NCBI RefSeq assembly: GCF_000012325.1
Contig: NC_003910.7
Span: forward strand, 2,418,001 to 2,482,000
DNA: 64,000 nucleotides
Direction of reading: 5' to 3'
Source of the DNA: Colwellia psychrerythraea 34H
Lineage (GTDB): Bacteria; Pseudomonadota; Gammaproteobacteria; Enterobacterales; Alteromonadaceae
A program made the position numbers and the translations under genes. Numbering within the stretch: the stretch's first letter is position 1; every line of letters begins with the position of its first letter. A model generated the notes under the pieces. That model was not told the DNA's origin, searched no databases, and saw only the letters and a list, made by a program, of their open reading frames with translations. This document shows, piece after piece, positions 32,540 through 58,120 of this stretch.

Positions 32540-32553
32540 TGACAACGTTATCA
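32540..32553. promoter_or_regulatory. LacI-type operator, site 1 (sulfatase at 32599)
   Basis: TGACAACGTTATCA, 46 bp before the ATG at 32599. With the preceding T it gives TTGACA, a perfect -35 hexamer, inside the site. A longer reading of the sulfatase would run through this operator, supporting the shorter start. Confidence 0.7.
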
Positions 32554-32598
32554 TGTTGTTGCAATATGCCTGTAGTCAAAGTTAACTGTTGGAATAAT

Positions 32599-34035
32599 AT
32601 GAAAGTACAAATTAAGAGCATAACTCAATGGGGCGGGGTGCTTCTACTGAGCTTTTCCTCATGTTATGTCAATGCAAATAAGCTCATTAAGCCAAATATA
32701 CTTTTTATTGCGGTTGATGATTTAAAGCCGCTTATTCGTGATTATGGAACAGCTAAAGTTCAGACGCCTAATATTGATAAATTGGCAAGTCAAAGTACTG
32801 TCTTTACCCGTGCTTATTCTCAATATCCGGTATGTGGGCCTTCTCGGATGAGCATTCTTACCGGATTGCGACCAGAATCAAATGGCATTATGAATTTGAA
32901 AGATAAGATTCGTGATGTTAACCCCAGCGTTATAACACTACCTCAATTTTTTAAAAATAATGGTTATGAAACAGCGGCAACAGGGAAAATTTTTGATCCA
33001 AGGAACACCACGAGTCGCAGTGAAGAAGAAGTATTATCTTGGTCAATTCCCTATCAAAGGCCTAAACACGGATTAAAGGGAAAAACACGTTTAGCGGTTG
33101 AGTCTATTGATGAACCGGATGAAAAATTTGTTGATGGCGGTATTCTTAAACGTGGCAAAAAGCTACTTAAACAAATGGCAAATAAAAACAAACCCTTCTT
33201 TTTAGCCGTTGGTTTTAAGAAGCCTCACTTACCATTTGTAGCACCAAAAAAATATTATGATTTATATAGCAGAGAAAGTTTTGACTTAGCAAGTTACCAA
33301 AGTGCCCCAGAAGATGCTGATACAACTTACTTATTTCATAAAAATCAAGAGTTAAGAGGGTATAAACCAACGCCTATTAAAGGTGGAGAAATAAAGCCTT
33401 ATCCAAAAGGTAAACTATCTTCTGCCCACCAAAAAGAGTTATTACATGGCTACTTTGCCTCGGTAAGCTTTATTGATAGCCTTGTTGGTGAATTACTCGA
33501 AGAGCTTGAAAAAACAGGTCAAGCTGAAAATACGGTAATTGTTTTTTGGGGGGACCACGGTTTTCATTTAGGTGATCATGGATTATGGGGGAAGCACACT
33601 ACTATGGAGCAAGCTAACCATGTTCCATTAATTATTAAAATCCCAGGTAGTAAAGCTAATCGTTATGCTAAGCCTGTTGAATTACTTGATGTTTTCCCTT
33701 CACTAACCGAAGCCGCAGGACTTTCAATACCGAATAACTTACAAGGAACAAGTTTAGTTTCTCTTGTAACAGGAAAGCTAAAATCAATTGATAAAGTCGC
33801 TATTAGCCAGTACAAGCGAAAAGGAGCGTATGGCTATTCAATGCGTACAGAGCAATATCGATATACCCAGTGGGTTACTCCAAGTGGTAAAGTCGTTTAT
33901 CGTGACTTGTATGATCTTATTAACGACCCCCTAGAAACCAAAAACATCATTAATACACCAGAAGGTAAATTGTTAGAGGTTGAGTTGAACAAACAACTTC
34001 ATACCAACAGTGCAGGTTTAAAAAGATTGAAATAA
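32599..34035 (+). CDS. formylglycine sulfatase, iduronate-2-sulfatase-like
   Basis: 478 aa from the ATG at 32599; the longer frame from 32536 covers the operator and is rejected. Signal peptide about residues 1-27. Type I sulfatase: metal ligands D40-D41 (IAVDDLKP), the cysteine converted to formylglycine is C79 in VCGPSRMSILTG, later metal ligands in WGDHGFHLGDHG. The closest shape is the iduronate-2-sulfatase group (SulfAtlas S1_7-like), which in marine bacteria acts on various algal polysaccharides. Paralogue of 59827-61335. First unit of the utilisation locus, with its own operator and terminator. Confidence 0.9.
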   Translation: MKVQIKSITQWGGVLLLSFSSCYVNANKLIKPNILFIAVDDLKPLIRDYGTAKVQTPNIDKLASQSTVFTRAYSQYPVCGPSRMSILTGLRPESNGIMNLKDKIRDVNPSVITLPQFFKNNGYETAATGKIFDPRNTTSRSEEEVLSWSIPYQRPKHGLKGKTRLAVESIDEPDEKFVDGGILKRGKKLLKQMANKNKPFFLAVGFKKPHLPFVAPKKYYDLYSRESFDLASYQSAPEDADTTYLFHKNQELRGYKPTPIKGGEIKPYPKGKLSSAHQKELLHGYFASVSFIDSLVGELLEELEKTGQAENTVIVFWGDHGFHLGDHGLWGKHTTMEQANHVPLIIKIPGSKANRYAKPVELLDVFPSLTEAAGLSIPNNLQGTSLVSLVTGKLKSIDKVAISQYKRKGAYGYSMRTEQYRYTQWVTPSGKVVYRDLYDLINDPLETKNIINTPEGKLLEVELNKQLHTNSAGLKRLK

Positions 34036-34063
34036 TTGGGACTTGAAAAAATTAGTGTGAATG

Positions 34064-34102
34064 AAAAGCCATTATCTATTTTATAGATAATGGCTTTTCT
34101 TT
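34064..34102 (+). terminator. terminator of the first sulfatase gene
   Basis: AAAAGCCATTATCTAT (34064-34079) pairs with ATAGATAATGGCTTTT (34083-34098) across TTT. Confidence 0.92.
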
Positions 34103-34455
34103 ATTTCAAATACAGATTACACACAACATGTTTGATAACGATGTTTTACTTCTCTATTTTGTGTTGACTTCCGTATGGCTCTCTATTGATATGATAACTG
34201 ATTAACGAGCTAGCTCTAAGTCGCTTTATTGTTAATTTGTTCGGGGTGTAAGCCCTCAGTTCAAACGTCATACTTCATTAATTCAATTAGATGAAAGTCT
34301 TATTTAAGTATTCGTTATCAGTTGTTTACGTGTATTTCGTCGCCTTGTTTCTGTTGTTTAATTGACCTTCTTTTCACTTGTACCATATATAACCTTTCAT
34401 CATAAAAATAGATTTTAGATTATTATAGATGTAATAAAAGTGTATTAAATTGTAT
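34103..34455. other. long leader region before the TonB receptor, no gene
   Basis: About 350 bp without coding signs. A half operator, TGATAACGATGTTT (34133-34146), lies far upstream and may be an auxiliary site. Confidence 0.4.
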
Positions 34456-34469
34456 TGACAACGATATCA
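34456..34469. promoter_or_regulatory. LacI-type operator, site 2 (TonB receptor)
   Basis: TGACAACGATATCA; with the preceding T it forms TTGACA at 34455-34460. A -10-like TATTGT sits 16 bp later (34477-34482). A repressor bound here would cover the -35 box. About 95 bp before the receptor ATG. Confidence 0.75.
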
Positions 34470-34564
34470 ATTGGTGTATTGTTAAGCTATCTAATAATAA
34501 AAATAATATTGCACAAAGTAATTATTATGAATATAACTATGTCACTAAGAGAAAGGGTTTAAAG

Positions 34565-37312
34565 ATGAAACGAACTTTTAATAAAACACTATTAAGTGTA
34601 AGTATTCTCGCTATTCTTAGCGGAGCCACTATCGTTCAAGCGGCCGAAACTAGCACAACAGTTGAAGTTGAAAAGAAAGCGAGTGCTAAAAAAGCTAAAA
34701 AGAAAGATGACAAAGGAATTGAAGTCATTGAAGTTGTCGGTACCCGTGGCAGCTTAAAACGCTCTATGAATGCGAAGCGCTTTTCTGATCAAGTAATGGA
34801 TGGTGTTTCTGCTGAAGATATCGGTAAGCTACCTGATAATAATATTGCCGAAGCACTTTCTCGTGTTGTTGGTGTATCAATGTCCCGTGCTGATGGTGAA
34901 GGTGAGTTTGTAAGTATTCGCGGTATGGCGCCAGGGCTAAGCCAAGTTACTTTAAATGGTCAATCAATGGCCAATAGTAATAGTAAATCTATTACCAGTA
35001 ATGGTGCATCAAGTCGTAGCTTTAATTTAAATAATATCGCCAGTGAAATGGTTGCGGGTATAGAAGTCTTTAAAAGCCCAATTGCAAGTATGGTAGAAGG
35101 CTCTGTTGGTGGTACGGTTAATTTGAAAAGCCGTAGCCCTATTGATTCCGGTAATAAAGCAACCATAACAGCTCGTGCTGATTATAATGAAAATGCGGCT
35201 GCGGCAGGTGGCGGTTTAAATTTATTCTTAAATGGCGTCAATGATGATGAAACCTTTGGTTCCTCTGTTGCTGTAAGTTATTTTGACAGAACTACGCAGC
35301 GTAATAGTTTTGAAAGTCGCGGTTGGGCACTACAAAAAAAAGCGCCTTATGTAAACGAATATAACGAAGATGGTACGCTAAATAAAGCAGGTGTTAGTGA
35401 TACACCTGTCTATCGTATTGAAGATATCCGTGCCAACTTTAGACACGATGAGCGAGAACGCATCAATGTTAATGCTAAAGCACAATGGCTAATTTCAGAT
35501 GAGTTAGATTTTAGTGTTGATGCTCTCTATAGCCGTCAGCAACGTAATTTTATTTCAACAAACTGGGATGTTGATTTTAGAGATAATGATAAACTGATTG
35601 TTGACATGGACAGTATTGTAATTGATGGCGAAAATGTTGTATCACAAATTGCCAGCGCAAATGACAAGGCAGGTAAAAACTATAATCATGAACAAACAGG
35701 TTTTGATCGCTCTTATGATGATGAAACCATTGCGGTAAACTTTACACTTGATTACATGCTAAATGACAATTGGACCATAACACCTAAAATTGGCTATAGC
35801 CAAGCGACAGGTTTACGTGATGATATTAATCCTTTATTCAGTACCAAAGTTCAAAATTTAGGATACAGTTTACCTAATGGTAGTTACATGCCAGAAATTA
35901 TTTACCCAACTGACCCTGATGAATTAGCGGCAATGAACCCTGAAAATCTCCAACTCGATGTAATGAACTATAAAAGTTTTGAAGTAGAAGATCAGCAAGG
36001 TTACGTACAATTAGATTTATCTACTGATTTAGACAATGAATATATCAGCTCAATTGAATTTGGTGCTCGTTATAATGAAATTCAAAAAACTAACCAAGTA
36101 TTTCAAGATAAAATCCAAGCTGATATTTTAGAGGCTAATGGTGGCACACAAATTATTTTATCAGATTATTCAAATTATACAGTAACGGATGGCATGTTAG
36201 ACAACGCCCCTGTAGATGCTTGGTATGTGCCTGACTTTGACAAAATCGATCAAGAGTTTGGCCACCTTGTTGAAAAGCTGGAAGTTCAAAGAGAAAATTA
36301 TGAAATAACTGAAAGTGTTACTGCTGCTTATGTTCAAGCCAATATTGATACTGAACTCTTGACTATTCCTGTACGCGGTAATCTTGGGGTTAGGTATGTA
36401 GACACAAAGATAGAGTCGACAGCTTATAAATTCTTAGCAGGTGAAGATCCAGCTTTAACTGAATCAGACAAAGATTATCAAGATGTACTGCCAAGTATTA
36501 ATTTAGCCTTTAACCTTAAAGATGACTTAATTTTACGTACTGCTGCCGCTAAAGTAATGGCGCGGCCTAACCATGCTGACATTGCACCAGTATTTAGAGA
36601 AATACGTTCATGGGATGCAGAGGATGGCGGCAAGTATATCATCGGAAATCCAGACTTAGACCCATACCGTGCAAATCAGTTTGATTTAAGTGCTGAATGG
36701 TATTTTGACAGTGAAGGTTTATTATCTACAGGTATCTTTTATAAAGACATAGAATCCTTCATTACCACTAGAACTGAATCAACAACATTGCCAGGTATTG
36801 GTGATGGTACACCATATGAAGTCACTCAACCTATTAATGGTGAAGGTGGTGTTGTACAAGGTTTTGAAGTTAGTTTTCAACAAGCATTCTATATGTTACC
36901 AGAGCCGTTTGATGGCCTAGGTACCGCAATAAACTATACCTATAATGACAGTGAAACGGAATTAATTAACAACGTTACTGGTGAGTTTATGAGCTTACCT
37001 GGCTTGTCACAAGATACAGCTAACTTTATGGTTTATTATGAAAAATATGGCTTTAGTACTCGTTTGGCATGGAACTATCGTAGCGAATACTTTAATCAGT
37101 TCTCTTGGTCTGAAGAGGCGCTGTATATAGAAGCTTATGATCAGTTAGATTTCCAATTGGGTTATGACTTTACTAAGAAAATGTCTATTAATTTTGAAGC
37201 GAAAAATATTACAGATGAGACAGTATATGAGTATGTTGGTAACCCTTCTCGCGCATATGCGGTTCGTGATAACGGCAGAACATTTAGCTTAAGCTTTAAG
37301 TACGCACTTTAA
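34565..37312 (+). CDS. TonB-dependent receptor for oligosaccharide import
   Basis: 915 aa. Signal peptide about 1-26, a Lys/Ala-rich linker (about 36-47), a TonB box-like IEVIEVVGTRGSLKR, then the plug domain (IAEALSRVVGVSMSR, VSIRGMAPGLSQVTLNG) and a 22-strand barrel ending in the aromatic-type terminus FSLSFKYAL. The plug style matches the TonB receptor subfamily first defined in Xanthomonas and Caulobacter and used for carbohydrates. As in other gammaproteobacterial loci there is no SusD partner. It is the only outer-membrane importer in the locus and has its own operator. Confidence 0.93.
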   Translation: MKRTFNKTLLSVSILAILSGATIVQAAETSTTVEVEKKASAKKAKKKDDKGIEVIEVVGTRGSLKRSMNAKRFSDQVMDGVSAEDIGKLPDNNIAEALSRVVGVSMSRADGEGEFVSIRGMAPGLSQVTLNGQSMANSNSKSITSNGASSRSFNLNNIASEMVAGIEVFKSPIASMVEGSVGGTVNLKSRSPIDSGNKATITARADYNENAAAAGGGLNLFLNGVNDDETFGSSVAVSYFDRTTQRNSFESRGWALQKKAPYVNEYNEDGTLNKAGVSDTPVYRIEDIRANFRHDERERINVNAKAQWLISDELDFSVDALYSRQQRNFISTNWDVDFRDNDKLIVDMDSIVIDGENVVSQIASANDKAGKNYNHEQTGFDRSYDDETIAVNFTLDYMLNDNWTITPKIGYSQATGLRDDINPLFSTKVQNLGYSLPNGSYMPEIIYPTDPDELAAMNPENLQLDVMNYKSFEVEDQQGYVQLDLSTDLDNEYISSIEFGARYNEIQKTNQVFQDKIQADILEANGGTQIILSDYSNYTVTDGMLDNAPVDAWYVPDFDKIDQEFGHLVEKLEVQRENYEITESVTAAYVQANIDTELLTIPVRGNLGVRYVDTKIESTAYKFLAGEDPALTESDKDYQDVLPSINLAFNLKDDLILRTAAAKVMARPNHADIAPVFREIRSWDAEDGGKYIIGNPDLDPYRANQFDLSAEWYFDSEGLLSTGIFYKDIESFITTRTESTTLPGIGDGTPYEVTQPINGEGGVVQGFEVSFQQAFYMLPEPFDGLGTAINYTYNDSETELINNVTGEFMSLPGLSQDTANFMVYYEKYGFSTRLAWNYRSEYFNQFSWSEEALYIEAYDQLDFQLGYDFTKKMSINFEAKNITDETVYEYVGNPSRAYAVRDNGRTFSLSFKYAL

Positions 37313-38542: not shown

Positions 38543-40018
38543 TTATTCACCAGTAATAATTACATTATCAATATATGCATTTTCACTATTTTTATTAGCC
38601 TTTAGCACCAATTTAATAACCAAATTATCAAGTCCTAACGCATCACTAGGTAAAGTAAATGAATAATCTTCCCATTCACTCACCGTTGTTTCACCCAAGG
38701 TAATAAACAAGCTACCACCATCAATAGAATATTCAGCTTTCAATGATTCACCTGAATCTAGACCATTAGTTTTAACACTAAATGATAACGTTGCTGCAGA
38801 ATAGGCTGCAGTAGAAATAGTGGTTTTCATTCGGCTGGTATTAGTAAGTTTTGCACCATAAGAGCCTTCAAAAGCAGATGATAAGGTAGCATCACCCGAA
38901 ACACCTGATACAGCCCAATCACTCAGCGTTCCACTTTCAAAATCATCACTAAATATAATCTGTTCAACAATATCAGCAGGAACTAATGCAATTATTGCAT
39001 CAGCAACGGGTTCCAATGTAGTCCATTCATTGATTGATACATCATAGAATTTTTTAGTAGCATTTACTGCATGAGGAATATTCCTATCATTTAGTACACC
39101 AACAAAATCTTTAACAAAAGCAATTTGACGGGCATTATCATAATCATCACCTTTGTTATAATTACCTGCCATCCAAGCACCTTCCCAAATAGGGATACCT
39201 GTATCTACACTCCAAGCTACAGCCGCATCAGCTCTCTCAGTCATTAACGTAATTTCAGCTGCACCACCATCCCAATAATAATGAGGGTTAGTTGGATCTG
39301 TACTTGGACCTGAAGCATAACCTTCGTGGAATTCGCCAATTAAATAGTCATTGCCAGCGGTTGGAATATCAAGTTGGTCCATACGGGTTGGATCTGAACG
39401 TTTATGAGCACTAAAGATCACGATACGTTCATCATTTTTACCGCCAGTACCACGTATCGCGGTAACTGCTTGTTCATAGGCTTCATTTAATTGGTTAATA
39501 GGCTCATCTGAAAGCGGACTACTCGCCGCAATTTCAACAATCAAATCAAACATTAATTCATAAGGGTAATCTTTATAATGAACAGCGATATCTTCCCACC
39601 ACTGTACCCAAGCAGCTTGAGTTGACTCGGTGGGGTTATCTTCAAAGGTATGTGATTGGTTGGCGATAATTGGAATCATCCCATTATCTAATGCATCTTG
39701 AATTTGTTCATCTAAAAATGTAAATACAGCTGTTGGTGAATCATTAGCAATACGCAAACGAATATGTTTGAAGCCTTTATCAGCAAACTCAACGGTAGCA
39801 ACGGCAGTATAATCCTCTATCTTATTGGGCACTTCTGACCAAGTTGAATCTACCCCGGCTTTCATTAATTTCACCATATCTTGTGGTGTAATAGGTGTTT
39901 GTGAATTAAGCACTTCCCCGTGGCTTAACGTGCCATAACTGGCTAATAATACGAATGAAATTGCTTTTGTTGTTAAAGATAGTTTTTTAGTGAATCTGCT
40001 TTTTTGTACGTTAGTCAT
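38543..40018 (-). CDS. GH5-like secreted glycoside hydrolase with C-terminal jelly-roll
   Basis: 491 aa from the second ATG (40018), which has AGAGG 7 bases ahead. Signal peptide about 1-35 (LSHGE). A TIM-barrel catalytic domain (about 38-350) resembles cellulase-like GH5, but the usual N-E-P is replaced: the strand-4 candidate acid is E162 in DLIVEIAASSP and the candidate nucleophile E279 in IPIWEGAWM. GEFHEGYASGP is strictly shared with the paralogue at 58172-59830. The last 120 residues form a beta-sandwich like a carbohydrate-binding module (DDFESGTLSDW). Own operator and terminator. Substrate unknown. Confidence 0.75.
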   Translation of the reverse strand: MTNVQKSRFTKKLSLTTKAISFVLLASYGTLSHGEVLNSQTPITPQDMVKLMKAGVDSTWSEVPNKIEDYTAVATVEFADKGFKHIRLRIANDSPTAVFTFLDEQIQDALDNGMIPIIANQSHTFEDNPTESTQAAWVQWWEDIAVHYKDYPYELMFDLIVEIAASSPLSDEPINQLNEAYEQAVTAIRGTGGKNDERIVIFSAHKRSDPTRMDQLDIPTAGNDYLIGEFHEGYASGPSTDPTNPHYYWDGGAAEITLMTERADAAVAWSVDTGIPIWEGAWMAGNYNKGDDYDNARQIAFVKDFVGVLNDRNIPHAVNATKKFYDVSINEWTTLEPVADAIIALVPADIVEQIIFSDDFESGTLSDWAVSGVSGDATLSSAFEGSYGAKLTNTSRMKTTISTAAYSAATLSFSVKTNGLDSGESLKAEYSIDGGSLFITLGETTVSEWEDYSFTLPSDALGLDNLVIKLVLKANKNSENAYIDNVIITGE

Positions 40019-40114
40019 AATCATACCTCTTTTGTTATTATTATAATTTTTATAGAGATATATCTAAAACTTTGTCCTAGTGATAAATATTCTCGCTATA
40101 AAAAGTACCATAAT

Positions 40115-40128
40115 TGATATCGTTGTCA
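40115..40128. promoter_or_regulatory. LacI-type operator, site 3 (GH5-like gene)
   Basis: On the minus strand, reading toward the gene, it is TTGACAACGATATCAA, identical over 16 nt to site 2. About 97 bp before the start codon; TTGACA again lies in the upstream half. Confidence 0.75.
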
Positions 40129-40538: not shown

Positions 40539-41405
40539 TTAATTAATTCTATTTGATGATAAATCTATCCATAACTCTTTACGCATTAATGGCGTACTTG
40601 CTGGCATGAGTGGGTTATCTAAAGCAAAAACTTTTCGATTTTGTTTTTTTACTTTGTTAATAAGATGTCCATAATAAGTCGTAAATATCTTGTCAAAGCT
40701 ACCATCTGTTAATGCTTTTTCTAAGCCAGATTTAATATCTGATGCTAAGTCATTATTGCCCTTTTGAACATAGAAATAATAAGCTGTAGGGTAATGAATC
40801 ATGCTACTTTTTTCTATCATGATATTAAGTGTAGGGTAGTTTTTTATTTCGTTAAACACTTGCAAAATGGAACGTGGAAAATAATCAAATCGGTTTTTAT
40901 CTAGCATTAACCATAGTCCGTTAAAACTGCTACCTGTTTCTACGTATATGTTATTTCTTTGCATTATTTCGGTATCACTCCAAAGGTGAAATAAACCAGG
41001 CGTTAATTTTTTAAAGTCGTCTAGCGTTGTTAAAGACTTAAAAATATCTTTATTTTTTGTATTTACCACCGGAATGCGCCAACCGTTAAGTCCTTTGAGT
41101 AAAGGAAATTCTATCGCTAAATGATTTTCTAAACGGTATGTTGTTGCACCAGCAAAAATAACATCAAACAATTCATCTTGCTCCATATATGCAAAAGCAC
41201 GATCTTTAGGGATTTTTTCAGTAAAAGGCACTAGTTGATAATTTTTTTTTGAATTATAACTAAGTACATGTTGTAAGAGTTCAACGCTGTATTTGTTTTT
41301 ACTACCAAAGTAATGAATGTCTTTAATTGGTTCCTTAGCGGTAGCAGAAATTGAAAATATGAGTAATACGTAGATAAAACACCGTATTTTTGAAGTCCTT
41401 TTCAT
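40539..41405 (-). CDS. periplasmic solute-binding-like protein, no transporter partner
   Basis: 288 aa with a signal peptide (about 1-23, ending SATAK). The fold is that of type 2 periplasmic binding proteins of the SBP_bac_3 kind: DVIFAGATTYRLENHLAIEF near the first lobe hinge and GLEKALTDGSFDKIFTTYYG at the end. No permease or ATPase is nearby, so it is probably not an ABC transporter part; related lone proteins serve as sensors or have unknown roles. GAGAG lies before the ATG. Behind the sulfatase at 41489-42967 on the same strand. Confidence 0.7.
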   Translation of the reverse strand: MKRTSKIRCFIYVLLIFSISATAKEPIKDIHYFGSKNKYSVELLQHVLSYNSKKNYQLVPFTEKIPKDRAFAYMEQDELFDVIFAGATTYRLENHLAIEFPLLKGLNGWRIPVVNTKNKDIFKSLTTLDDFKKLTPGLFHLWSDTEIMQRNNIYVETGSSFNGLWLMLDKNRFDYFPRSILQVFNEIKNYPTLNIMIEKSSMIHYPTAYYFYVQKGNNDLASDIKSGLEKALTDGSFDKIFTTYYGHLINKVKKQNRKVFALDNPLMPASTPLMRKELWIDLSSNRIN

Positions 41406-42967: not shown

Positions 42968-43085
42968 AACATATTCCAATTTATATTGATAAATAATAGT
43001 TAAATTAATAGCTAGTAGGAAGTTAACTGATGTTTATATGCAACAGCCACTTTTTGTTGGGCGCTACTATCCTTTAATAGCTAAG

Positions 43086-45493: not shown

Positions 45494-45507
45494 TGATAAC
45501 GATGTCA
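45494..45507. promoter_or_regulatory. LacI-type operator, site 4 (GH3 gene)
   Basis: TGATAACGATGTCA; read toward the GH3 gene it is TTGACATCGTTATCAG. About 60 bp before the start codon. Confidence 0.7.
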
Positions 45508-48390: not shown

Positions 48391-48417
48391 CATATTTCCT
48401 AATATTTGTCACAATCA

Positions 48418-48468: not shown

Positions 48469-50082
48469 TTAATGTTTAGCTGATTTTTTCTTGTCATCTT
48501 TTTTATCTTTAATAGGCTTTATTCGTAAGAACGTTCTTAAACCATCATCACCCTCTTTTTTCAACCAGTTATCTGGAAAGTCAGCTGTTTCGCCACGGTC
48601 ACGTTCACGGTAAACCGCACCAGGAGTATACTTTTCAGTGTAAGGGATAACATTATCACCTTTTTTATTCACTAAAAGGTTGAATAAATCATGACGCATT
48701 TGCGCTATAAGTGGTTGATGTTTAGGTGTATTGATTAAGTTGTTCATTTCTTTAGGATCATTTTTTAAGTCATAAAGCTCTTCAGTGTCCCAAACACCGT
48801 GATATTGAATTAGTTTGTAGTTGTCAGTACGCAAAGCAAAAGTAGTTGGGGTAGAAGGGTAGTTAAATTCCCAATAATATTCATATAAAAAGTTCTCACG
48901 CCATTGATTTACTTCTTTGTTTTTAGCAAGAGGTAACCAACTGTCGCCATCAAAGTGAGCTGGTTTTTTAGCGCCTGCAATTTCTAATATTGTAGGGGCT
49001 ATGTCTAGGTTAGCAACCATTTCGTCTACTACGGTGCCGGGTTTGAAATAACCGGGAGCATAAGCAAGTAACGGTACACGCATAGACTCTTCATAAGCAT
49101 TACGCTTGTCAATTAAACCGTGTTCGCCAAACATAAAGCCGTTATCGCCCATTAACATCACAATAGTATCATTTTCTAAGTTATTATCTTTTAGCCACTT
49201 TAATACACGACCTAAACTATCATCCACGGCAGATAGTGCTCTATGGTATTGACGCTTATATTCTTGAACGTCCATTTCACTATGGTAAGGAAAGTCGACC
49301 CCATGCCAGCTATTACGTTGATTCTTCACCCACATAGGCTTGCCTGCATAGTTTTCTGGAGTATCGGCTTGGCTTTCAGGGACTTCAATTGCTACATCGC
49401 TATATTGATCTTTATGGCGTGGAGCAGGATCAAAATTAGAATGTACTGCTTTATGAGATAAATACATAAAAAATGGTTTGTCTGAATCACGTTTGTCTAA
49501 CCAATCCACCGCGTAATCAGTCAACTCATCGGTAATATAGCCCTTTTGGTCAACTCTTTCGCCATTGATATTAATTTTGTTTGTTCGACCTTTTTTATCT
49601 TTTTTGGGATAGTAATGTCCTTGACCCGCAAAACTTAACCAATGATCAAACCCCGGTTGAGGAGAGTCACCGTGACCACCCATATGCCATTTGCCGAAGA
49701 AACTTGTTTCATAACCCACCTCTTGTAGATAGGAAGGGAAATATACAGAGCTTTCTTTTGCTGGGTTATTATTATCAACTACTCCATGATTATGCATGTA
49801 CTGACCAGTTAATATCGTTGCACGACTAGGTGAGCAAAGGGCGGTAGTAACAAAAGCATTTTTGAAATAAACACCGCCAGCAGCAAGTTTATCCATATTT
49901 GGTGTATCAATACGCGGGTTTAAAAAGCCTACTTCATCATAGCGTTGGTCATCAGTTAAAATGTAGATGACATTTTTCTTTTGTTTTACTGTTTTGTTTA
50001 CGGTTGCTGATAACGATGATACTGAAAAGCATAAACTTAAACTTAGCACTGTTATTTTTAACGCATCTATTTTTGAAGACAT
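48469..50082 (-). CDS. formylglycine sulfatase, N-acetylglucosamine-6-sulfatase-like
   Basis: 537 aa; AAGGGA lies before the ATG. Signal peptide about 1-26. D44-D45 (ILTDDQRYDEVG), C83 in ALCSPSRATILTG, GKWHMGGHGD and MGDNGFMFGEHG. The ELYDLKNDPKEMNNL stretch near the end and the DDQR start fit the S1_11-like glucosamine-6-sulfatase group, whose marine members have wider substrates. The C-terminus is lysine-rich (DKKDDKKKSAKH). First gene of the sulfatase-sulfatase-esterase operon. Confidence 0.9.
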   Translation of the reverse strand: MSSKIDALKITVLSLSLCFSVSSLSATVNKTVKQKKNVIYILTDDQRYDEVGFLNPRIDTPNMDKLAAGGVYFKNAFVTTALCSPSRATILTGQYMHNHGVVDNNNPAKESSVYFPSYLQEVGYETSFFGKWHMGGHGDSPQPGFDHWLSFAGQGHYYPKKDKKGRTNKININGERVDQKGYITDELTDYAVDWLDKRDSDKPFFMYLSHKAVHSNFDPAPRHKDQYSDVAIEVPESQADTPENYAGKPMWVKNQRNSWHGVDFPYHSEMDVQEYKRQYHRALSAVDDSLGRVLKWLKDNNLENDTIVMLMGDNGFMFGEHGLIDKRNAYEESMRVPLLAYAPGYFKPGTVVDEMVANLDIAPTILEIAGAKKPAHFDGDSWLPLAKNKEVNQWRENFLYEYYWEFNYPSTPTTFALRTDNYKLIQYHGVWDTEELYDLKNDPKEMNNLINTPKHQPLIAQMRHDLFNLLVNKKGDNVIPYTEKYTPGAVYRERDRGETADFPDNWLKKEGDDGLRTFLRIKPIKDKKDDKKKSAKH

Positions 50083-50140: not shown

Positions 50141-50154
50141 TGATATCGTTATCA
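50141..50154. promoter_or_regulatory. LacI-type operator, site 5 (sulfatase operon)
   Basis: TGATATCGTTATCA, about 60 bp before the start codon of the sulfatase at 50082. Site 6 lies about 200 bp away for the divergent gene. Confidence 0.7.
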
Positions 50155-50339: not shown

Positions 50340-50353
50340 TGACAACGTTATCA
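50340..50353. promoter_or_regulatory. LacI-type operator, site 6 (GH10 lipoprotein)
   Basis: TGACAACGTTATCA, 53 bp before the ATG at 50407; TTGACA at 50339-50344 overlaps it. Confidence 0.75.
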
Positions 50354-50406: not shown

Positions 50407-53400
50407 ATGAAAAACTATAAATGTACCTTTGCCCTTATGCTTATTTTCTGTTTGGGAGTACAAGGTTGTGGCTCTGAAGAGCAAGTAATAGAAGAACTAC
50501 CAATACTTGAAATTCCAGTTGAGGATGCTCCAGTAGAGGATGTTCCAGTTGAGGAAATTCCAGTTGAGGAAGCTCCAGCTGAGGAAGTTCCAGTTGAGGA
50601 AGATCCAGTTGAGGAAGTTCCAGTTGAGGAAGCTCCAGCTGAGGAAGATGTTGAACTTTCTGCATTTGAACTAGCGATGGCAAAATGTAATAACCCTTGG
50701 AATGAGCTAGGTGTAGCGTTAAATGATAATAGTGAGTTGCTAAATGACCCATTATTATCGACATGTTATCGTGTGTCAGGGGTTGTTGATGGCTTAATTG
50801 ATGACAATATTGACTTGTCAATTAATGGTGCTGAAACGCTAGCGGTGGCAAGTGAGGGGCAATTTGAATTTGTTACTCCTTTTATCAGTGATGAAACGTT
50901 TATATTGAGCGTAAAAACTGCAGCAACAAAACATCAATGTAATTTGATTAATAACAGCGGCACAATTAATGATGAGCAAGCCAATAACCTTATTGTTCAT
51001 TGTATAGCTACTACCAGCCAATGTGATAAAACCACAGAAAATATTACTGATGATAAAAACTTCTCAGGTAATAATATTGAAGGAATTGAGAGTCTTGTTA
51101 GTGATATTGAATGTGGTGTAGAACCATGGCGAGAAGCAGCTAACGAACGTATCAATAACATTCGTAAAACGTCAGGTACTATTACTATTGTTGATAAAAA
51201 TGGTGAGCCAGTAACTAACGCTAAAGTGAACTTAACCCTTAACCGTCATAACTTTAAGTTTGGGGGAATTGCTCAGGCAAAATTATGGCATGGTGAAGCC
51301 GATGATGTTGCAGATCTATATAAAGCGGCTTATTTAGATTTTGGTTTTAATAAAGGTGGTTTTCAAAACGCTTTAAAATATAAATTAAGAGCAGGTTTAG
51401 AGCCTTTAGTACCAGCTATGCTTACTTGGTTTAAAGCGCATGATATCCCTGTGCGTGGGCATGCGTTGATCTGGCCAAAATGGACGAATATGGAAACAAC
51501 AGTATCAGCACAAGATGCATTAGATATGGGCATTACCCAAGGAGATGTTGCGAACCTTCCCAGTGATGAACTGAAAATTTATGTTGATACCACGATTAGA
51601 AATTGGGCGAGTAAGTGGGATGTTGTTGAGTGGGATGTTGCTAACGAATTACGAGGTCACTACGATGTGCAAGATATTCTAGGCTATCAAGAAGAAGCAC
51701 ATTGGTACAAATTAGCTAAGGCCAATGTTCAAAATTCGGCGACATTATTTATTAATGATAATCGAATTATATCAGATAGCAGTGAAACTGTGGTTTCAGA
51801 TAAAGTTGCAGGCTATAAAAGTAATGTTGAAAGTATTCTTGCAGACGATACGTTAAATGAAGGTCATGTTGAAGCGCTTGGATTTCAAAGTCGCTTTGGT
51901 TCGATGTTATCTGCGGATACTATTTATCAACGTTTATCCTATTTTGATGACTTAAATCTGCCAATTTCAGCGACGGAATTTGAGATTAAAGATGACTTGA
52001 TAACCACAGAGATTGACCGCGCTGTTTTAACTGAACGAGTGATGACTGTTTACTTTAGTAAAGAAAGTGTCAGTGATATTTTAGTCTGGACATTTTTTGA
52101 AAGCTCTAGCCGAAGTGATGCTCGCCATTTAGTCGACTTAGAAGGCAATGCTAATTTACGAGGAAAAACGTGGTTGTATTTAGTTAAGAAACATTGGAAT
52201 ACCGATGTTACCACTTGGTTAGATAGGCAGGGGGAAACACAGCTAAACGGCTTTAAAGGTGAATATACTGCAACGGTATCTTTTACAAATTACCCTGATG
52301 AGCAGGTTGACTTCTCTTGGATTGATGGCACAAAGGGTAAAACAATTCAGTTACTTAATTACGCCAATGGTAGCGACAGTGCAACACCTGCTAGTTTCAG
52401 TATTGATAGTTTTGAAAATACTGAAGTAGAGGAAGGCGTTATGTTTACTAGTACAGTACCGACCCTGTCAGGTGATGATAATATTGGCGCTATTACTTGG
52501 ACTGTAACCGGTGATGATGCCAACTTATTTAACCTTAACTCTATAACTGGCGTTTTAAGCCTTACAGCACAAGACTTTGAATCACCAGCTGATACTGATA
52601 TTGATAATAACTATGCGGTTATTTTAACTGCGACGGATGCTGTTGGTAATTTTGCAGAATTAGCTTTAGAGCTCGTTGTAACTGATAATCTTGCCGATAA
52701 CCAAGTACTAGTAAACTTCACTATTGATGAATTCATTACCACAACAATTGCTGAAAATGTAATTTATAGCAGTGAGCTGCCAAACCTTTCTGGTGATGAA
52801 GCAGTTGGTAGTGTTATTTGGACTGTTGAAGGCGATGATGCTAATTTATTTGTTGTCGATTCATCGACAGGTGCATTAACTTTAGCGGCTCAAGATTTTG
52901 AAAATGCTAATGATTTAGCTGGAGATAATGACTATCTAGTAACACTTGTCGCGACTGATTCAGAAGATAATTTCGCCCAACTAGCATTAGTTATTTCAGT
53001 AACCAATGTTGATGAAGTTGTTGTTTATTCACCACCTGAGATTAGTGGTGACAATGGTGATATTTCGAGTGTTATCAATGCTGGTGATTTAGTTTTTACT
53101 CGTCCAGCCCTGGCGACGGAAACGACACTTGATGGTGGCGCTGCCACAGTTGAAGGTAATAAATGGAAGTTATTCAATTGGAGTGAAGCCGAAGCTTACT
53201 GTAGTGATATTGGTGCAAGATTACCAACTAAAACAGAGTTATCAGATAACTTATTAACGTTAGTTAATGATGCCGACTTGGTTAGCAATGGCAGTTTCTC
53301 CGCTACCGAGCATTGGCCTGTAAATAAAGGTTACTGGGCTAGCACTTTTCCTGAGGATGGTAAACATCACTTAATGAAAACAAGCATAGATCCGGCAAAA

Positions 53401-53451
53401 ATGTCAGCTTTAGCTGATACCAACCGTCAATATGTAACTTGTGTTAGATAA
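50407..53451 (+). CDS. multidomain GH10-type lipoprotein with cadherin-like repeats
   Basis: 1014 aa. Lipobox VQGC with acylated C21. Then an acidic P/V/E repeat stalk (about 27-82), a beta domain (about 95-200), a carbohydrate-binding-like strand region (about 245-285), and a GH10 barrel (about 300-600). Catalytic acid/base E414 in WDVANE and nucleophile E524 in SATEFEI; GH10 xylanases usually show WDVVNE and ITELD. Two cadherin-like repeats follow (about 663-760 and 770-865; GDDANLF in both), then a DUF1566-like domain (WKLFNWSEAEAYC). Probably surface-anchored. Xylan is the family substrate; a sulfated or modified one is inferred. Confidence 0.85.
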   Translation: MKNYKCTFALMLIFCLGVQGCGSEEQVIEELPILEIPVEDAPVEDVPVEEIPVEEAPAEEVPVEEDPVEEVPVEEAPAEEDVELSAFELAMAKCNNPWNELGVALNDNSELLNDPLLSTCYRVSGVVDGLIDDNIDLSINGAETLAVASEGQFEFVTPFISDETFILSVKTAATKHQCNLINNSGTINDEQANNLIVHCIATTSQCDKTTENITDDKNFSGNNIEGIESLVSDIECGVEPWREAANERINNIRKTSGTITIVDKNGEPVTNAKVNLTLNRHNFKFGGIAQAKLWHGEADDVADLYKAAYLDFGFNKGGFQNALKYKLRAGLEPLVPAMLTWFKAHDIPVRGHALIWPKWTNMETTVSAQDALDMGITQGDVANLPSDELKIYVDTTIRNWASKWDVVEWDVANELRGHYDVQDILGYQEEAHWYKLAKANVQNSATLFINDNRIISDSSETVVSDKVAGYKSNVESILADDTLNEGHVEALGFQSRFGSMLSADTIYQRLSYFDDLNLPISATEFEIKDDLITTEIDRAVLTERVMTVYFSKESVSDILVWTFFESSSRSDARHLVDLEGNANLRGKTWLYLVKKHWNTDVTTWLDRQGETQLNGFKGEYTATVSFTNYPDEQVDFSWIDGTKGKTIQLLNYANGSDSATPASFSIDSFENTEVEEGVMFTSTVPTLSGDDNIGAITWTVTGDDANLFNLNSITGVLSLTAQDFESPADTDIDNNYAVILTATDAVGNFAELALELVVTDNLADNQVLVNFTIDEFITTTIAENVIYSSELPNLSGDEAVGSVIWTVEGDDANLFVVDSSTGALTLAAQDFENANDLAGDNDYLVTLVATDSEDNFAQLALVISVTNVDEVVVYSPPEISGDNGDISSVINAGDLVFTRPALATETTLDGGAATVEGNKWKLFNWSEAEAYCSDIGARLPTKTELSDNLLTLVNDADLVSNGSFSATEHWPVNKGYWASTFPEDGKHHLMKTSIDPAKMSALADTNRQYVTCVR
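50510..50648 (+). repeat. in-frame 15-bp tandem repeats coding the P/V/E stalk
   Basis: Repeats of CCAGTTGAGGAA with GTT/GAT/GCT variation encode VPVEE/APAEE units. Unit number is likely to vary by slippage. Confidence 0.9.
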
Positions 53452-53501
53452 GTTTATTGTTGGTTAGTAATGCTTGTTCAGCTGTATTAGTTAGATAAAT
53501 T

Positions 53502-53532: not shown

Positions 53533-53548
53533 TTGGAGATAAATATTC

Positions 53549-54922
53549 TTAAAAGGAAAGGGCTATCTCGTTAGTATTTTTATCAATGTTAATCGTATGC
53601 ACAATATTACTGTCACCTTGGCTTACAGTAACTTGATACTTGCCATGGAAAGCACTGACATCAATTTTTCCAGCGCTATTCGTTTGTTTAGTTTCATTTG
53701 TTTGCCAGTGGTTATTGATAAGATATAGCCAAATTTTACCATTAAGGGGCAAACTCATATCCCAGTTTAATAGTCCTCTGGTTTCTTTTTCATTGGTAGT
53801 TGATTTATCATTAGCTGAAGAGCGACTTGTTAAATTATTTAATACCGTCCATGCAACGATGCCATCTACATTAGGGTGGGAGAAAAGCACTTGCATGTAC
53901 TCTTCAGTCATTTGAGCGCGCCTCAAGTGTGTTGGCTTGAAGTTGTAGCGTGGTGTATTTACTATTTCAAACTCAGTAGCAACGATAGGGAGGTTGAACT
54001 CATTAAATTGTTCAAGGCGCTGATAGACCATTTCAGGGGTAATGGAGTCAACTCTAAATCGTGCTTGTACACCAATAGCTTCAATAGGACCGCCGTCAGC
54101 AATTATTTCTTTAATAATTTTTTTGTATTCTACAATCCGATCAATATTGGCTGGTGGGGCTGAAATAATTCTATTTTCATTAATAAATAAACGAGCATCT
54201 TTATTTCTAACGTGTTTTTGTGCTTGCTTGAACCAATCAGCCATAATATCTCGACCTAAAAGGTTAGCAATTTCAAGATTGTCTAACGGTTCATTCATTA
54301 CATCCCATTCGACAACATCCCAACGCTTTGCATAGTCATATAGTTGAGCTTCTATAAAGTTTTTTAACTGCTCAGGATTGTTCTTTAATTTTTTGGCGTC
54401 TTTGTGCATAAACTGCCAGCCAGGGTAAACAAGTACATGACCGCGAGCGCTGATATCGTGTTGTTTTGCCCAATCTATTATTGGTTCTACAGTATCCGCT
54501 AATCTTTCTTTATGTTTGTATTTTAGCCCGTTGTTGAAGCCAATTTGATTAATGAAGTTTGGTAATACCTCTGCTTGTTTCGCAAATTTCTTAGTAGAGA
54601 TTACTCCACCGAAGTTGAATTTATGGTTAAGTTGCTTTAACTCGACCTTAGCATTAGGTAAAGGAATGCCATTCTTGTCCTTTACCTCAACAGTGATTTG
54701 GGACTTACGGTATTTATTAATTCGCTGCTGAGCGTCAATGCGCCATTGTTGCTCACTCGTTCCATTTTTTTGTAATTCAATTTCAGCAATTATTTTTTCA
54801 ATGCCGGTAATATTAGTACCGTCGTAAGTTTCTGCAAGATTTGTTTGTGCGTGTAGCGATAGTGATAATAACCAAAAGGCAGCAGGTACAATTATCGGTA
54901 ATGTTTTTAGTGGATAGTTCAT
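53549..54922 (-). CDS. GH10-type endo-glycosidase, secreted
   Basis: 457 aa, signal peptide about 1-25 (SLHAQT). An N-terminal beta module (about 60-110, SQITVEVKDKNGIPLPNAKVEL) precedes the GH10 barrel. Acid/base E211 in WDVMNEP and nucleophile E317 in VATEFEI, the same TEFE variant as the 1014-aa protein; INENRII is shared as well. It is coded 153 bp behind the LacI gene at 55076-56089 and probably transcribed with it. Confidence 0.87.
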   Translation of the reverse strand: MNYPLKTLPIIVPAAFWLLSLSLHAQTNLAETYDGTNITGIEKIIAEIELQKNGTSEQQWRIDAQQRINKYRKSQITVEVKDKNGIPLPNAKVELKQLNHKFNFGGVISTKKFAKQAEVLPNFINQIGFNNGLKYKHKERLADTVEPIIDWAKQHDISARGHVLVYPGWQFMHKDAKKLKNNPEQLKNFIEAQLYDYAKRWDVVEWDVMNEPLDNLEIANLLGRDIMADWFKQAQKHVRNKDARLFINENRIISAPPANIDRIVEYKKIIKEIIADGGPIEAIGVQARFRVDSITPEMVYQRLEQFNEFNLPIVATEFEIVNTPRYNFKPTHLRRAQMTEEYMQVLFSHPNVDGIVAWTVLNNLTSRSSANDKSTTNEKETRGLLNWDMSLPLNGKIWLYLINNHWQTNETKQTNSAGKIDVSAFHGKYQVTVSQGDSNIVHTINIDKNTNEIALSF

Positions 54923-55075: not shown

Positions 55076-56089
55076 TTAAGAACAGGGACTGGTAGAGTTT
55101 CTAATAATTAATTCACAGTCGAACACAGTATCAAACTCTTCAAAAGGTTGTTTTTTAATTCTTTTAATAAGTTTTTTTACGACGGTATTAGCCATTTGAT
55201 TTATTGGTTGTTTAACAGTGGTGATAGATGGCCATATTTGTTGAGATACAGGAGCGTCATCATAACCAACCACAGATAAATCGGCTGGAATGTTAATTTT
55301 CATTTGCGCCGCTACTTTAAGAATTGCCGCTGCCATATAATCATTACTGGCAAAAATAGCCGTAGGTCTACTTTCTTGATTAAGTAGTTGTCTTGCGCAG
55401 CTTTCACCGGTTTCAAAAGTAAACATGCCCTGTTTTACATAATCTTCATCAAGTGTTAATCCCATATTTTCAAGTGCTCTTTGGTAGCCCTTATAACGTT
55501 TATGGGTGGCACCAAAGTCAGGGTGGCCTTTGATAAAACCAATTTTAGTATGACCAAGGGATATTAGATATTTGGTCATTTCAAAAGAAGCCTCTTCGTC
55601 ATTACTCATAACATATGGAGAATCATGCTCACGTACAAAAGGGGAAATACGTGCAAACGGTATGTTTTTTTCATCAAGTAGAGCGATAAGCTCTTTATTA
55701 TCACAAAGTGGATGAGTAAGAATAAAGCCATCTTGAGTTGAGTATTGGGTTATCGACTCGACACTTTTAATTAAATCAGGGCTGTTGTGATCACAAGGGT
55801 GAATTTGTAAGTTATAACCTTGCTCAATACATTGGGAGAGGGCCCCGTTTTGTAATTCAAGGATATAGCCCGGATTAGGATTAGAGTAGAGTAGGGTGAT
55901 AATAAAAGACTGTTGACCTCTAAGCCCTCTTGCTAATGGGTTACGCTTAAAATCTAATGCTTTAACTGCTGCATGTACCTTTTCTTGTAATACAGGTCTG
56001 ACATTAGGTTCATCATTAAGCACCCTTGATACTGTTTTAACCGAAACTTCGGCAACAAGAGCAACATCTTTAATAGTAGCTTTAGCCAA
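55076..56089 (-). CDS. LacI-family transcriptional regulator, paralogue 1
   Basis: 337 aa from a TTG start at 56089 with AAAGGAAT 5 bases ahead; the start is fixed by alignment to the paralogue at 61359-62378 (ITIKDVA). Helix-turn-helix about 4-25 with recognition helix VSVKTVSRV and hinge helix NPLARGLRG. Periplasmic-binding-type effector domain follows (SNDYMAAAILKVAAQ, SVVGYDD). Operators 7 and 8 lie in its upstream region, so it probably controls itself. The recognition helix equals that of paralogue 2, so both should read the same sites. Confidence 0.93.
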   Translation of the reverse strand: MAKATIKDVALVAEVSVKTVSRVLNDEPNVRPVLQEKVHAAVKALDFKRNPLARGLRGQQSFIITLLYSNPNPGYILELQNGALSQCIEQGYNLQIHPCDHNSPDLIKSVESITQYSTQDGFILTHPLCDNKELIALLDEKNIPFARISPFVREHDSPYVMSNDEEASFEMTKYLISLGHTKIGFIKGHPDFGATHKRYKGYQRALENMGLTLDEDYVKQGMFTFETGESCARQLLNQESRPTAIFASNDYMAAAILKVAAQMKINIPADLSVVGYDDAPVSQQIWPSITTVKQPINQMANTVVKKLIKRIKKQPFEEFDTVFDCELIIRNSTSPCS

Positions 56090-56174
56090 GGTATTCCTTT
56101 AATTGTTATCAGCTATAATTTATTAAAATCATAGCATTAACCTTGAAGCCCCGCAATCTAAAGAAAACTGTTTT

Positions 56175-56188
56175 AGACACCGTTATCA
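56175..56188. promoter_or_regulatory. degenerate LacI-type operator, site 7
   Basis: AGACACCGTTATCA; the right half is perfect and the left half differs. Lies in the divergent region between LacI paralogue 1 and the isomerase gene, 35 bp from site 8. Confidence 0.45.
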
Positions 56189-56209
56189 ATTTGATGTTAC
56201 TATTGGTTG

Positions 56210-56223
56210 TGACAACGTTATCA
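56210..56223. promoter_or_regulatory. LacI-type operator, site 8 (divergent region)
   Basis: TGACAACGTTATCA, same 14 nt as sites 1 and 6. About 40 bp before the isomerase-like gene and 120 bp from the LacI start. Confidence 0.75.
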
Positions 56224-56264
56224 GTTTTATTTTAATCGTTGATATATTAATTGTGAGCTTTCAA

Positions 56265-57308
56265 ATGAATTATAAACAAGAAAAGCGTAGGGCAGCTATT
56301 AAAAAAATTGCTTTTGTTGTTGGTGGGATAGCTATTGCACCAACATTAATCTCTCAATCATTAGCAAAACCCTTTTTAGCCAGTAATCCCATTTTGCCCT
56401 TTCAAATATCTTTATCTCAATGGGCGTTTGAAAGTGAAATTTTTGGCAAAGGACGTGATAACTACAAATGGTTTAAAAAAATGTTAGAGGAGGATCCTCA
56501 GGCTGTTTTGCAAGGCTCTATGGATACAACTGACATTGTTGTTAAAGCACAGAAGCTTGGTTTACATGGCGTTGATTTAGTCACCTCGATGATTTATGGA
56601 CATAGAAATAATACGAAGTGGTTACGTAACTTTAAGCAAAAAGGCAAAGACCATGATGTTTCATTTATTTGTTTAATGGCTGATACCGCTACAAAAATTG
56701 GGGCAAGTGATTTATTAGCGCGCAAAAAAGCAGTAGATGATCACAAGCATTGGATAGAAGCGGCAGTAGAGTTAGGGTGTGAGCATATCAGAGTAAATCC
56801 TTTTGGTGATGGCACCTATTTACAGCAAATGAACCAATGTTCAGAGTCTTTATATGAATTAAGTGAGTTTGCTAGCAATGTTGGCATGCAACTTACCGTT
56901 GAAAATCATGGCCACCCTTCAAGTAATGGCGCATGGTTGAACATGTTAATAGAATTAACTAATCATAGTAATTTAGGTCTTTTTCTAGATTTTGGTAATT
57001 TCTTTATGGGTGGTTTTAATGCTAAACCTAGACGCTGGTATGATTTAAAACAAGGTGTAATCGACTTAGCTCCATTTACGGTTGGAATAAGCGGTAAAGC
57101 ACGAAGTTTCTTACCTAATGGTGATATTGAAATGATTGATTATGATTGGAATATGGAGCAGGTATTGGCATCAGGCTTTAATGGTTGGGTTAGTGCTGAA
57201 TATGCTGGAAAAGAGTATTCAAATACTCAAGGAGCCCAAATGATTATTGATAAATTGAGAAAGCTTCAAGAAAAACATAAACAAAGTCGAACTAATTTAA
57301 TGACTTAG
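56265..57308 (+). CDS. exported sugar phosphate isomerase/epimerase-like protein
   Basis: 347 aa from the ATG at 56265; a GTG at 56253 is the alternative. The N-terminus has a twin-arginine-type motif, KRRAAIKKIAFVVGG, followed by a hydrophobic stretch and SLAKP, so export by Tat is likely. The rest is an AP-endonuclease-2/xylose-isomerase-like TIM barrel: TVENHGHPSSNG and LFLDFGNFFMGG supply metal-binding E, H and D. Members convert or cut sugars; the substrate is unknown. Operator 8 controls it. Confidence 0.75.
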   Translation: MNYKQEKRRAAIKKIAFVVGGIAIAPTLISQSLAKPFLASNPILPFQISLSQWAFESEIFGKGRDNYKWFKKMLEEDPQAVLQGSMDTTDIVVKAQKLGLHGVDLVTSMIYGHRNNTKWLRNFKQKGKDHDVSFICLMADTATKIGASDLLARKKAVDDHKHWIEAAVELGCEHIRVNPFGDGTYLQQMNQCSESLYELSEFASNVGMQLTVENHGHPSSNGAWLNMLIELTNHSNLGLFLDFGNFFMGGFNAKPRRWYDLKQGVIDLAPFTVGISGKARSFLPNGDIEMIDYDWNMEQVLASGFNGWVSAEYAGKEYSNTQGAQMIIDKLRKLQEKHKQSRTNLMT

Positions 57309-57328
57309 TATTTAATTTTGATTTTTGT

Positions 57329-57342
57329 TGATAACGTTGTCA
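57329..57342. promoter_or_regulatory. LacI-type operator, site 9 (PEP-CTERM gene)
   Basis: TGATAACGTTGTCA, 90 bp before the ATG at 57432 and 20 bp behind the isomerase-like gene. Confidence 0.7.
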
Positions 57343-57431
57343 ATAGTGTTCTATTATTTAAGTAGATTGTTAACCGAGATAAGGCTAGCAACTAAAAAGT
57401 CATCTTTGAAGTAGGAATGAGAGAGTAAACA

Positions 57432-58064
57432 ATGAAAAATAAAATAATGAAGTTTGTTCAAAGTAGTATTCTACTGTTATCAATAATTTTTTCTTATCAG
57501 GCGACAGCCGGATTAATAATGCGCGATCAAGGCATGGTATATGATGATGTTTTAAACATCACTTGGCTGCTTGATGCTAACTATGCCAAAACCAGTGGTG
57601 CAATTGACGCTGATTCAAGTGGTAAAATGACTTGGACAAATGCCAATGCTTGGGTCGACTCAATAAATGTGGGTGGTTTTTCTGATTGGCGCTTAGCTAC
57701 AGTAGATACTGTTAATAGCGATAAATCAGAACTTGCCCATATGTTTATGGTTAATTTAACTAATACCGATAGCTTAATAAATAAAAGCTTCTCTGATGTA
57801 AATACCGGCGAAAAATATAATTTTAGTAACCTTTTTGGCAGTAGGTATTGGACTGACACATCGGTTAATGACACTAAAGCATGGTCTTTTAGTTTTAGTA
57901 ATGGCAGTGAAAATGGTAATAAATTAAAATCTGAGACTTTTAAAGCATGGGCAGTTAGAGAGGGTGATGTAATGTCATTTTCTGTGCCAGAGCCGACGAA
58001 CATAGCAATATTTATTATAGGTATTATGGGCTTAATTCATGTTAGGCGTATTAGTAAAAAATAA
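57432..58064 (+). CDS. PEP-CTERM protein with DUF1566-like domain
   Basis: 210 aa. Signal peptide about 1-26 (QATAG). The middle has DVLNITWLLDANYAK, MTWTNANAWVDS and GFSDWRLATVD, the DUF1566-like pattern also seen at the end of the 1014-aa GH10 protein. The C-terminus is a PEP-CTERM sorting signal: VPEP, then a hydrophobic segment and a basic end (RRISKK), the substrate form for exosortase. No exosortase is in the window. It is presumably an exported surface protein of the locus, possibly a glycan binder. Confidence 0.82.
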   Translation: MKNKIMKFVQSSILLLSIIFSYQATAGLIMRDQGMVYDDVLNITWLLDANYAKTSGAIDADSSGKMTWTNANAWVDSINVGGFSDWRLATVDTVNSDKSELAHMFMVNLTNTDSLINKSFSDVNTGEKYNFSNLFGSRYWTDTSVNDTKAWSFSFSNGSENGNKLKSETFKAWAVREGDVMSFSVPEPTNIAIFIIGIMGLIHVRRISKK

Positions 58065-58106
58065 ATATTAACGGTGTATTGATAAGGTCATTTTTTTATT
58101 TGGGTA

Positions 58107-58120
58107 TGATAACGTTATCA
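58107..58120. promoter_or_regulatory. LacI-type operator, site 10 (GH5-like/sulfatase/LacI operon)
   Basis: TGATAACGTTATCA, a perfect palindrome, 51 bp before the GTG at 58172. Confidence 0.78.

Follow-up and report, generated by a model that had tools for sequence, protein, structure and literature searches.

Gene content of the locus

We analyzed a stretch of 64,000 nucleotides from Colwellia psychrerythraea 34H (NC_003910.7, positions 2,418,001 to 2,482,000; hereafter the window, whose coordinates are used below), in which one 14-bp palindrome recurs across a polysaccharide locus that also encodes two LacI-type candidate repressors, LacI1 and LacI2. The locus contains six sulfatases, three GH10 enzymes, GH5-like enzymes, two GH3 enzymes, and one TonB-dependent receptor; degradative enzymes are thus co-located with outer-membrane uptake, as in a polysaccharide utilization locus. 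Operon boundaries were inferred from spacing, and by Pfam results and distances each inferred polysaccharide-gene block has a site.

On the plus strand, the predicted operator at 32540..32553, with TTGACA in its upstream half and kept in the relative G135, precedes sulfatase S1a (32599..34035, +; PF00884, 2.4e-44), for which the open reading frame (ORF) was listed from a TTG at 32536 and the likely start is the ATG at 32599. The predicted operator at 34456..34469 (+), also with TTGACA in the upstream half, precedes the TonB-dependent receptor (34565..37312, +; PF00593, TIGR01782). Three blocks follow on the minus strand. The GH5-like enzyme GH5a (38543..40024; PF00150, 8e-16) lies behind a predicted operator at 40115..40128 (TTGACA in the upstream half), and one at 45494..45507, again with TTGACA in that half, precedes GH3a (43156..45435; PF00933, 1.4e-71), sulfatase S1b (41489..42979; PF00884, 5.5e-59), and a 288-aa protein (40539..41405), which looks periplasmic-binding-like by eye only, has no Pfam or NCBIfam match, and was taken as the last gene of the block. 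The predicted operator at 50141..50154 precedes sulfatases S1d (48469..50082; PF00884, 1.4e-63) and S1c (46714..48393; PF00884, 1.8e-41) and a GDSL hydrolase (45571..46713; PF13472, 1.6e-15).

In the plus direction, the predicted operator at 50340..50353, with TTGACA in the upstream half, precedes GH10a (50407..53451; PF00331, 2.3e-13). LacI1 (55076..56089, -) is followed on its strand by GH10b (53549..54922, -; PF00331, 5.9e-28) and preceded by a weaker predicted operator (56175..56188, -). A better one (56210..56223, no strand assigned) lies between lacI1 and the divergent gene for a xylose-isomerase-like TIM barrel protein (56253..57308, +; PF01261, 4.7e-22). Further predicted operators precede an Lcl_C/PEP-CTERM-like surface protein (site 57329..57342, +; gene 57432..58064, +; PF07603, TIGR02595) and a block comprising GH5b (58172..59830, +), sulfatase S1e (59827..61335, +; PF00884, 7.4e-44), LacI2 (61356..62378, +), and probably also GH10c behind it (62539..63699, +; PF00331, 1.8e-36). 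The site of this last block (58107..58120, +) is a perfect palindrome. GH5b was recognized as a GH5a paralogue via matches between homologues and has no GH5 Pfam match of its own; the C-terminal parts of the two GH5-like proteins (38543-40024 and 58172-59830) differ.

Three predicted operators lie beyond the window end: at 68941, before GH3b and the divergent sulfatase S1f (267 bp away); at 76899, before a 929-aa and a 1002-aa protein; and at 85334, before a transporter of the gluP subfamily (glucose/galactose type) and a glucokinase, both over NCBIfam cut-offs. The first two are within 13 kb of the window end and the third is another 8 kb further, with glk at 86902, 24.5 kb from lacI2. RND-type and two-component genes, from 77 to 83-85 kb, have no site of their own.

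Two neighboring features were also recorded. A multiheme-cytochrome and TPR protein (63955-66186, extending beyond the window end; L071 63-2186) is encoded directly behind GH3b and has homologues in G135 and L047. The segment just before the locus (29928-31302) carries a pair of identical tRNA-Ser(TGA) genes as well as an integrase-like ORF. Their position prompted the idea of an integrated island; a search up to coordinate 104,000 revealed no second occurrence of the tRNA-Ser end.

Distribution of the palindrome in the genome

The best symmetric form of the motif, TGAYAWCGWTRTCA, has nine matches inside the window and was absent from every one of 100 dinucleotide shuffles of it. An earlier note on this DNA had listed nine good copies and one degraded one. 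All nine were recovered at their positions and fit the pattern TGAYAACGWTRTCA perfectly on one strand or both. The tenth (56175) has two mismatches, as its description as degraded implies, but it is identical in two relatives, L044 and L046/G135. The motif's reported absence from the core genes at 1-30,000 also held, with no TGAYAACGWTRTCA match at two or fewer mismatches in 1-32539. Additional two-mismatch matches inside the locus (34133, 48645, and 50008) all fall in coding sequence.

When the whole genome (5,373,180 bp, one contig) was scanned, 12 exact TGAYAWCGWTRTCA matches were found, all within a 52.8-kb stretch at 32540-85347, so the motif does not occur at equal density elsewhere. With the degraded site at 56175, the total is 13. 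From the base composition of the window, 0.61 matches would be expected per genome and 0.006 per stretch; the reversed pattern, read backwards as a control, gave two genome matches. With one mismatch allowed, TGAYAACGWTRTCA occurred on the plus strand at 14 places outside the locus; the reversed control gave 11, which puts the genome beyond the locus close to background. Among these 14 places, two (1.043 and 1.053 Mb) adjoin a NagR-like gene cluster. The sites span the locus that the earlier note described, but the end was placed too early there, as the regulon reaches about 88,000.

The good sites share little sequence beyond the 14-bp core. At position 4, nine of the 12 exact sites mix C and T between halves, and site 85334 has C in both halves. 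This mixing was considered as a sign of heterodimer binding and is not claimed as such, since much of it can be put down to the TTGACA within the operator.

Spacing and overlap with predicted promoter elements

The sites had been said to lie 40-100 bp before nearly every unit, which is borne out by gaps of 41-95 bp to the likely start codon in nine window site-gene pairs; on the divergent lacI1 side the gaps are 120 and 85 bp. Overlap with the -35 box, also proposed earlier, stands for part of the set: TTGACA is found in the promoter-side half of 5/9 window sites (7/12 exact sites overall) and not in the others, and of the five window sites with TTGACA only 34456 and 45494 have a -10-like hexamer (at least 4/6) at 16-18 bp.

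Conservation in relatives and co-occurrence with LacI1

In Colwellia sp. 75C3 (L046, genome G135), LacI2 is 98% identical and the DNA is about 94% identical over most of the shared stretch. Sites were located there with the matrix, and a match was found at every one of the 13 positions. Only 1/182 site bases had changed, versus 82/777 flanking bases (Fisher p 2.4e-7; flanks were taken as aligned bases up to 30 bp to each side of a site, with gap columns dropped, and the flanks of 56175 and 56210 each run into the other's site).

In another relative, an Alteromonadaceae metagenome-assembled genome (G003, contig L045), gene order is rearranged, and each of the nine exact sites stands in front of a homologue (51-84% identity) of a gene with a site here, namely GH5-like, PEP-CTERM-like, S1d, GH3a, TonB receptor, S1a, GH3b/S1f, the 929-aa protein, and the transporter. 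Thalassomonas M1454 (L047) has three matrix matches, before a transporter/LacI pair, an S1e-GH3b pair, and an unmatched gene. A near-match, TGACAACGTTATCT, lies there between the LacI1 homologue and the transporter homologue. Together with the exact site before the transporter homologue in G003, TGACAACGTTATCT supports the distant site at 85334. In G178, four of nine exact sites precede clear homologues, those of the TonB receptor, the transporter, S1b, and S1f (69%, 0.8 Mb away). The association between site and gene is thus conserved in relatives, with the exceptions of G158 and part of G178.

Across the family, a LacI1 homologue of >55% identity was present in 5/196 genomes, the best of the remainder among the matches listed being 49%; the matches were ordered by E-value and extend far below the values discussed. 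Exact-site counts in the five carriers were 12, 12, 9, 9, and 1, and none of the other 191 genomes had more than 6, although 126 of them hold a more distant homologue (E 1e-60 or better). The top four genomes by site count are thus four of the five carriers, for which the chance would be 8e-8 assuming independent genomes, which near relatives are not.

The two LacI proteins and their base-reading residues

Both LacI1 and LacI2 have the helix-turn-helix and the periplasmic-binding-type ligand domain of the LacI family, with matches to PF00356 (2e-14 and 5.2e-18) and PF13377 (2.7e-34 and 3e-34), all over cut-off; they account for two of the seven PF00356 matches in the genome. They share 39/58 residues in the DNA-binding part and 151/279 (54%) in the ligand part. 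In the tree, LacI2 and two further Colwellia sequences form a separate clade, and two close homologues by the split locus of G178 are not grouped with it, at a weakly supported fork (84/64).

Numbered as in PMC2978694, LacI1 and LacI2 both carry V15, K16, T17-V18-S19-R20, A51, L54, and R55. That study tied amino acid positions (AA) to nucleotide positions (NT): AA-15/16 to NT-5/4, AA-20 to NT-6, and AA-55 to NT-2, a role of AA-55 having been demonstrated for the purine repressor (PMC2978694). Following this code, we infer that residues 15/16 would go with the A-C/T pair of the operator and Arg20 with its outer G; Leu54 would pair with the central CG and Arg55 with the adjacent A/T. The residue-base pairs here follow the position links of the TVSR subgroup.

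The last of these pairings was examined in a survey of LacI loci. In it, 57 LacI genes were recognized, and the count was made over the 46 that have a TGA-type palindrome no more than 1.5 kb away; L068, L070, and L110 gave no LacI gene, and L085 and L086 were dropped as duplicates. Only the TGA...CG...TCA form was scanned, and a nearby palindrome need not be the LacI gene's own operator. With Arg55, 8/8 loci have only A/T at NT-2, beside the central CG, versus 0/38 with Ala55; by half-site, A/T beside CG was found in 24/24 for Arg55 and 9/114 for Ala55, these nine being A. Nine LacI genes lacked such a palindrome in the 1.5-kb range (five Arg55, three Ala55, one Val55), and the Arg55 genes among them include both Colwellia LacI2 copies and L047.

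A sister LacI is encoded in a parallel G178 locus (L134 6232-18427), together with a related receptor, GH3, and sulfatases. Its recognition residues differ (VSIATVSRV), with Arg at 55, and one palindrome, TGTAAACGTTTACA, was recognized there by the survey's rule; in this one case, the A beside CG is kept and the outer bases are changed. In the wider group, a third operator type was observed: LacI relatives with K-K at AA-15/16 and Ala55 pair with TGACACCGGTGTCA-like sites (half-sites, n = 74: CAC 63, TAC 9, TAG 2) at L048-L056, L058, L061, L089-L095, L098, L100, and L111.

Weighing the explanations

We consider it highly probable, from the agreement of sites, genes, and base-reading residues, that TGAYAWCGWTRTCA is the operator of LacI1, and very probably that of LacI2 too by identical DNA-reading residues, in a local autoregulated regulon. 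The LacI-type operator and regulon proposed in the earlier note are supported by the confinement of the exact sites, their retention before homologues through rearrangement, co-occurrence with LacI1 in 4/5 carriers, and residue-base agreement. The motif is an even palindrome with a central CG, stands before regulator and targets, and is rare elsewhere, as expected of such a regulon; sites before the blocks of both regulators fit autoregulation, although for lacI2 this holds only through its position further along an inferred block. We regard the LacI regulon over the sulfated-polysaccharide locus as real, conserved, and local.

Several observations weigh against this reading. In G158, which has a LacI1 homologue at 61%, the one exact site is inside an ORF, one weaker match lies near a LacI gene, and no such locus appears in the stretches fetched. 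In G178, three of the nine exact sites precede genes without a homologue here and two precede weak ones (about 30%), while the parallel locus L134 encodes related enzymes and a sister LacI but lacks the motif. Five of the eight Arg55 loci are this locus or its kin, leaving only L059, L060, and L097 outside it, and 3/5 window sites with TTGACA have no -10-like hexamer at the right distance.

Chance, or a structural or mobile repeat, has a negligible probability as the source of the palindromes. Palindromes can spread as repeats, but here little is shared beyond the 14-bp core, none arose in 100 shuffles, and position and core were held through rearrangement; we rejected this origin on the shuffles, the genome scan, and the flank comparison. 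It is also very improbable that the NagR-like LacI regulator at 1.04 Mb owns the sites or has a share in them; this gene was called NagR-like by eye from neighboring ORFs, without a family scan. Its recognition helix (VSIKTVSRV) is close to VSVKTVSRV, it has nearby sites TGACAGCGCTGTCA and TGACAACGCTGTCA, and in other genomes TGACAACGTTGTCA, which fits the searched pattern, lies beside NagR-like LacI genes (e.g., 4/6 G033 sites). None of the 12 sites here is TGACARCGYTGTCA, however, and at position 4 nine of them combine C with T; residue 55 is Ala in the NagR-like protein but Arg in LacI1 and LacI2; and the 191 genomes without a close LacI1 homologue have no more than 6 exact sites each even though 126 hold a distant one. 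The NagR-like regulator was rejected as the owner of the sites on site form and residue 55.

Which of the two proteins reads the sites is less settled. That only LacI1 does, with LacI2 a diverged paralogue with another target or none, seems rather unlikely. In its favor, G003 retains the motif with a LacI1 homologue as its sole LacI match of >40% identity, and 39/58 residues are common to the two DNA-binding parts. Against it, the base-reading residues named in PMC2978694 are identical in LacI1 and LacI2, and lacI2 sits behind site 58107. Activation or mixed action instead of repression appears improbable. A clear -35/-10 frame is missing at some sites, but TTGACA lies within the operator at 7/12 sites, where binding would block polymerase. 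Ligand-free DNA binding usually means repression. The majority of LacI-family regulators bind DNA in this ligand-free form (PMC4052901).

Proposed mechanism

Repression would probably occur by promoter occlusion, a mode that we infer because TTGACA lies in the promoter-side half of 7/12 sites and because a suitably spaced -10-like hexamer is present at several of the sites, though not at all. Without inducer, LacI dimers on the sites would mask or encroach on the promoters. Repression would then extend to the sulfatase, GH10/GH5/GH3, TonB-receptor, and transporter-glucokinase blocks and to both regulator genes, lacI1 and lacI2. The repressors would probably be released by a mono- or oligosaccharide from the sulfated polysaccharide. 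As a more tentative possibility, which we rate somewhat below an even chance, the two paralogous repressors may share the 13 operators as a two-input switch, such that both would have to be released, or mixed dimers would form, before the enzymes are made.

The gene content suggests a sulfated polysaccharide as the substrate. The transporter and glucokinase point to a hexose, and the GH10 family points to xylan-like linkages. GH10c, the only one of the three GH10 enzymes compared, matched xylanases among solved structures, and GH5a gave weak matches to cellulases. No match to the xylose isomerase family TIGR02630, the only entry searched among xylose routes, was found in the genome, which speaks against xylose use by that route. 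In G003, a xylB-xylA-transaldolase-transketolase-pgi-epimerase cluster lies beside the locus (L139 7980-18020).

Comparison with known systems

Local LacI sugar regulons (PMC4052901) resemble the present one in their even palindrome with central CG, autoregulation, regulator among the targets, and catabolic genes. This locus differs in having about 13 operators in 53 kb, two paralogous regulators, sulfatases, and a TonB receptor (cf. PMC4052901); the main text of that study contains none of the words Alteromonadales, Colwellia, and xylan. NagR, the N-acetylglucosamine regulator, is listed as a LacI-family member in PMC5343134, and shares with the proteins here the TVSR recognition helix, lysine at AA-16, and the TGA.A.CG.T.TCA operator form. 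The NagR-like protein of this genome combines Ala55 with TGACARCGYTGTCA, whereas this locus combines Arg55 with TGAYAWCGWTRTCA. The scanned targets are sulfatases and GH10/GH5/GH3 enzymes, not the nag/chitin genes with TGACARCGYTGTCA-type sites of a NagR regulon. The NagR-like cluster itself (L077, L003, L004; 1.04-1.05 Mb) is a second LacI-type cluster in the genome, with TGACAGCGCTGTCA-type sites.

GluR of Caulobacter is predicted to control central glucose metabolism (PMC4052901), in contrast to the polysaccharide enzymes here, and of the zwf-pgl-edd-glk operon that adjoins the regulator in a GluR regulon, only glk was found among the ORFs scanned. In Asticcacaulis (L064), a 42% LacI1 homologue with Ala at residue 55 adjoins a glucokinase-like gene, with TGACAACGTTGTCA 6 kb off. 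The Colwellia echini carrageenan cluster (PMC6952198), compared by description only, is also a Colwellia polysaccharide locus but contains carrageenan enzymes; a count of the whole word LacI in its text gave none. In titles and abstract openings, no published account of this or a similar regulon was found. Systems of this type are well known, and the present one is an unusually clear new example.

Significance

For a large sulfated-polysaccharide locus of a marine gammaproteobacterium, the analysis defines a regulon that is clean and can be tested. Co-regulation would tie the TIM-barrel, PEP-CTERM-like, 1002-aa, and 929-aa proteins, as well as the distant transporter-glucokinase pair, to the same pathway. 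If the link between Arg55 and A/T holds in more lineages, it would help to predict the operators of other LacI proteins from sequence. More interesting still is the possibility that two paralogous repressors act jointly on one operator set.

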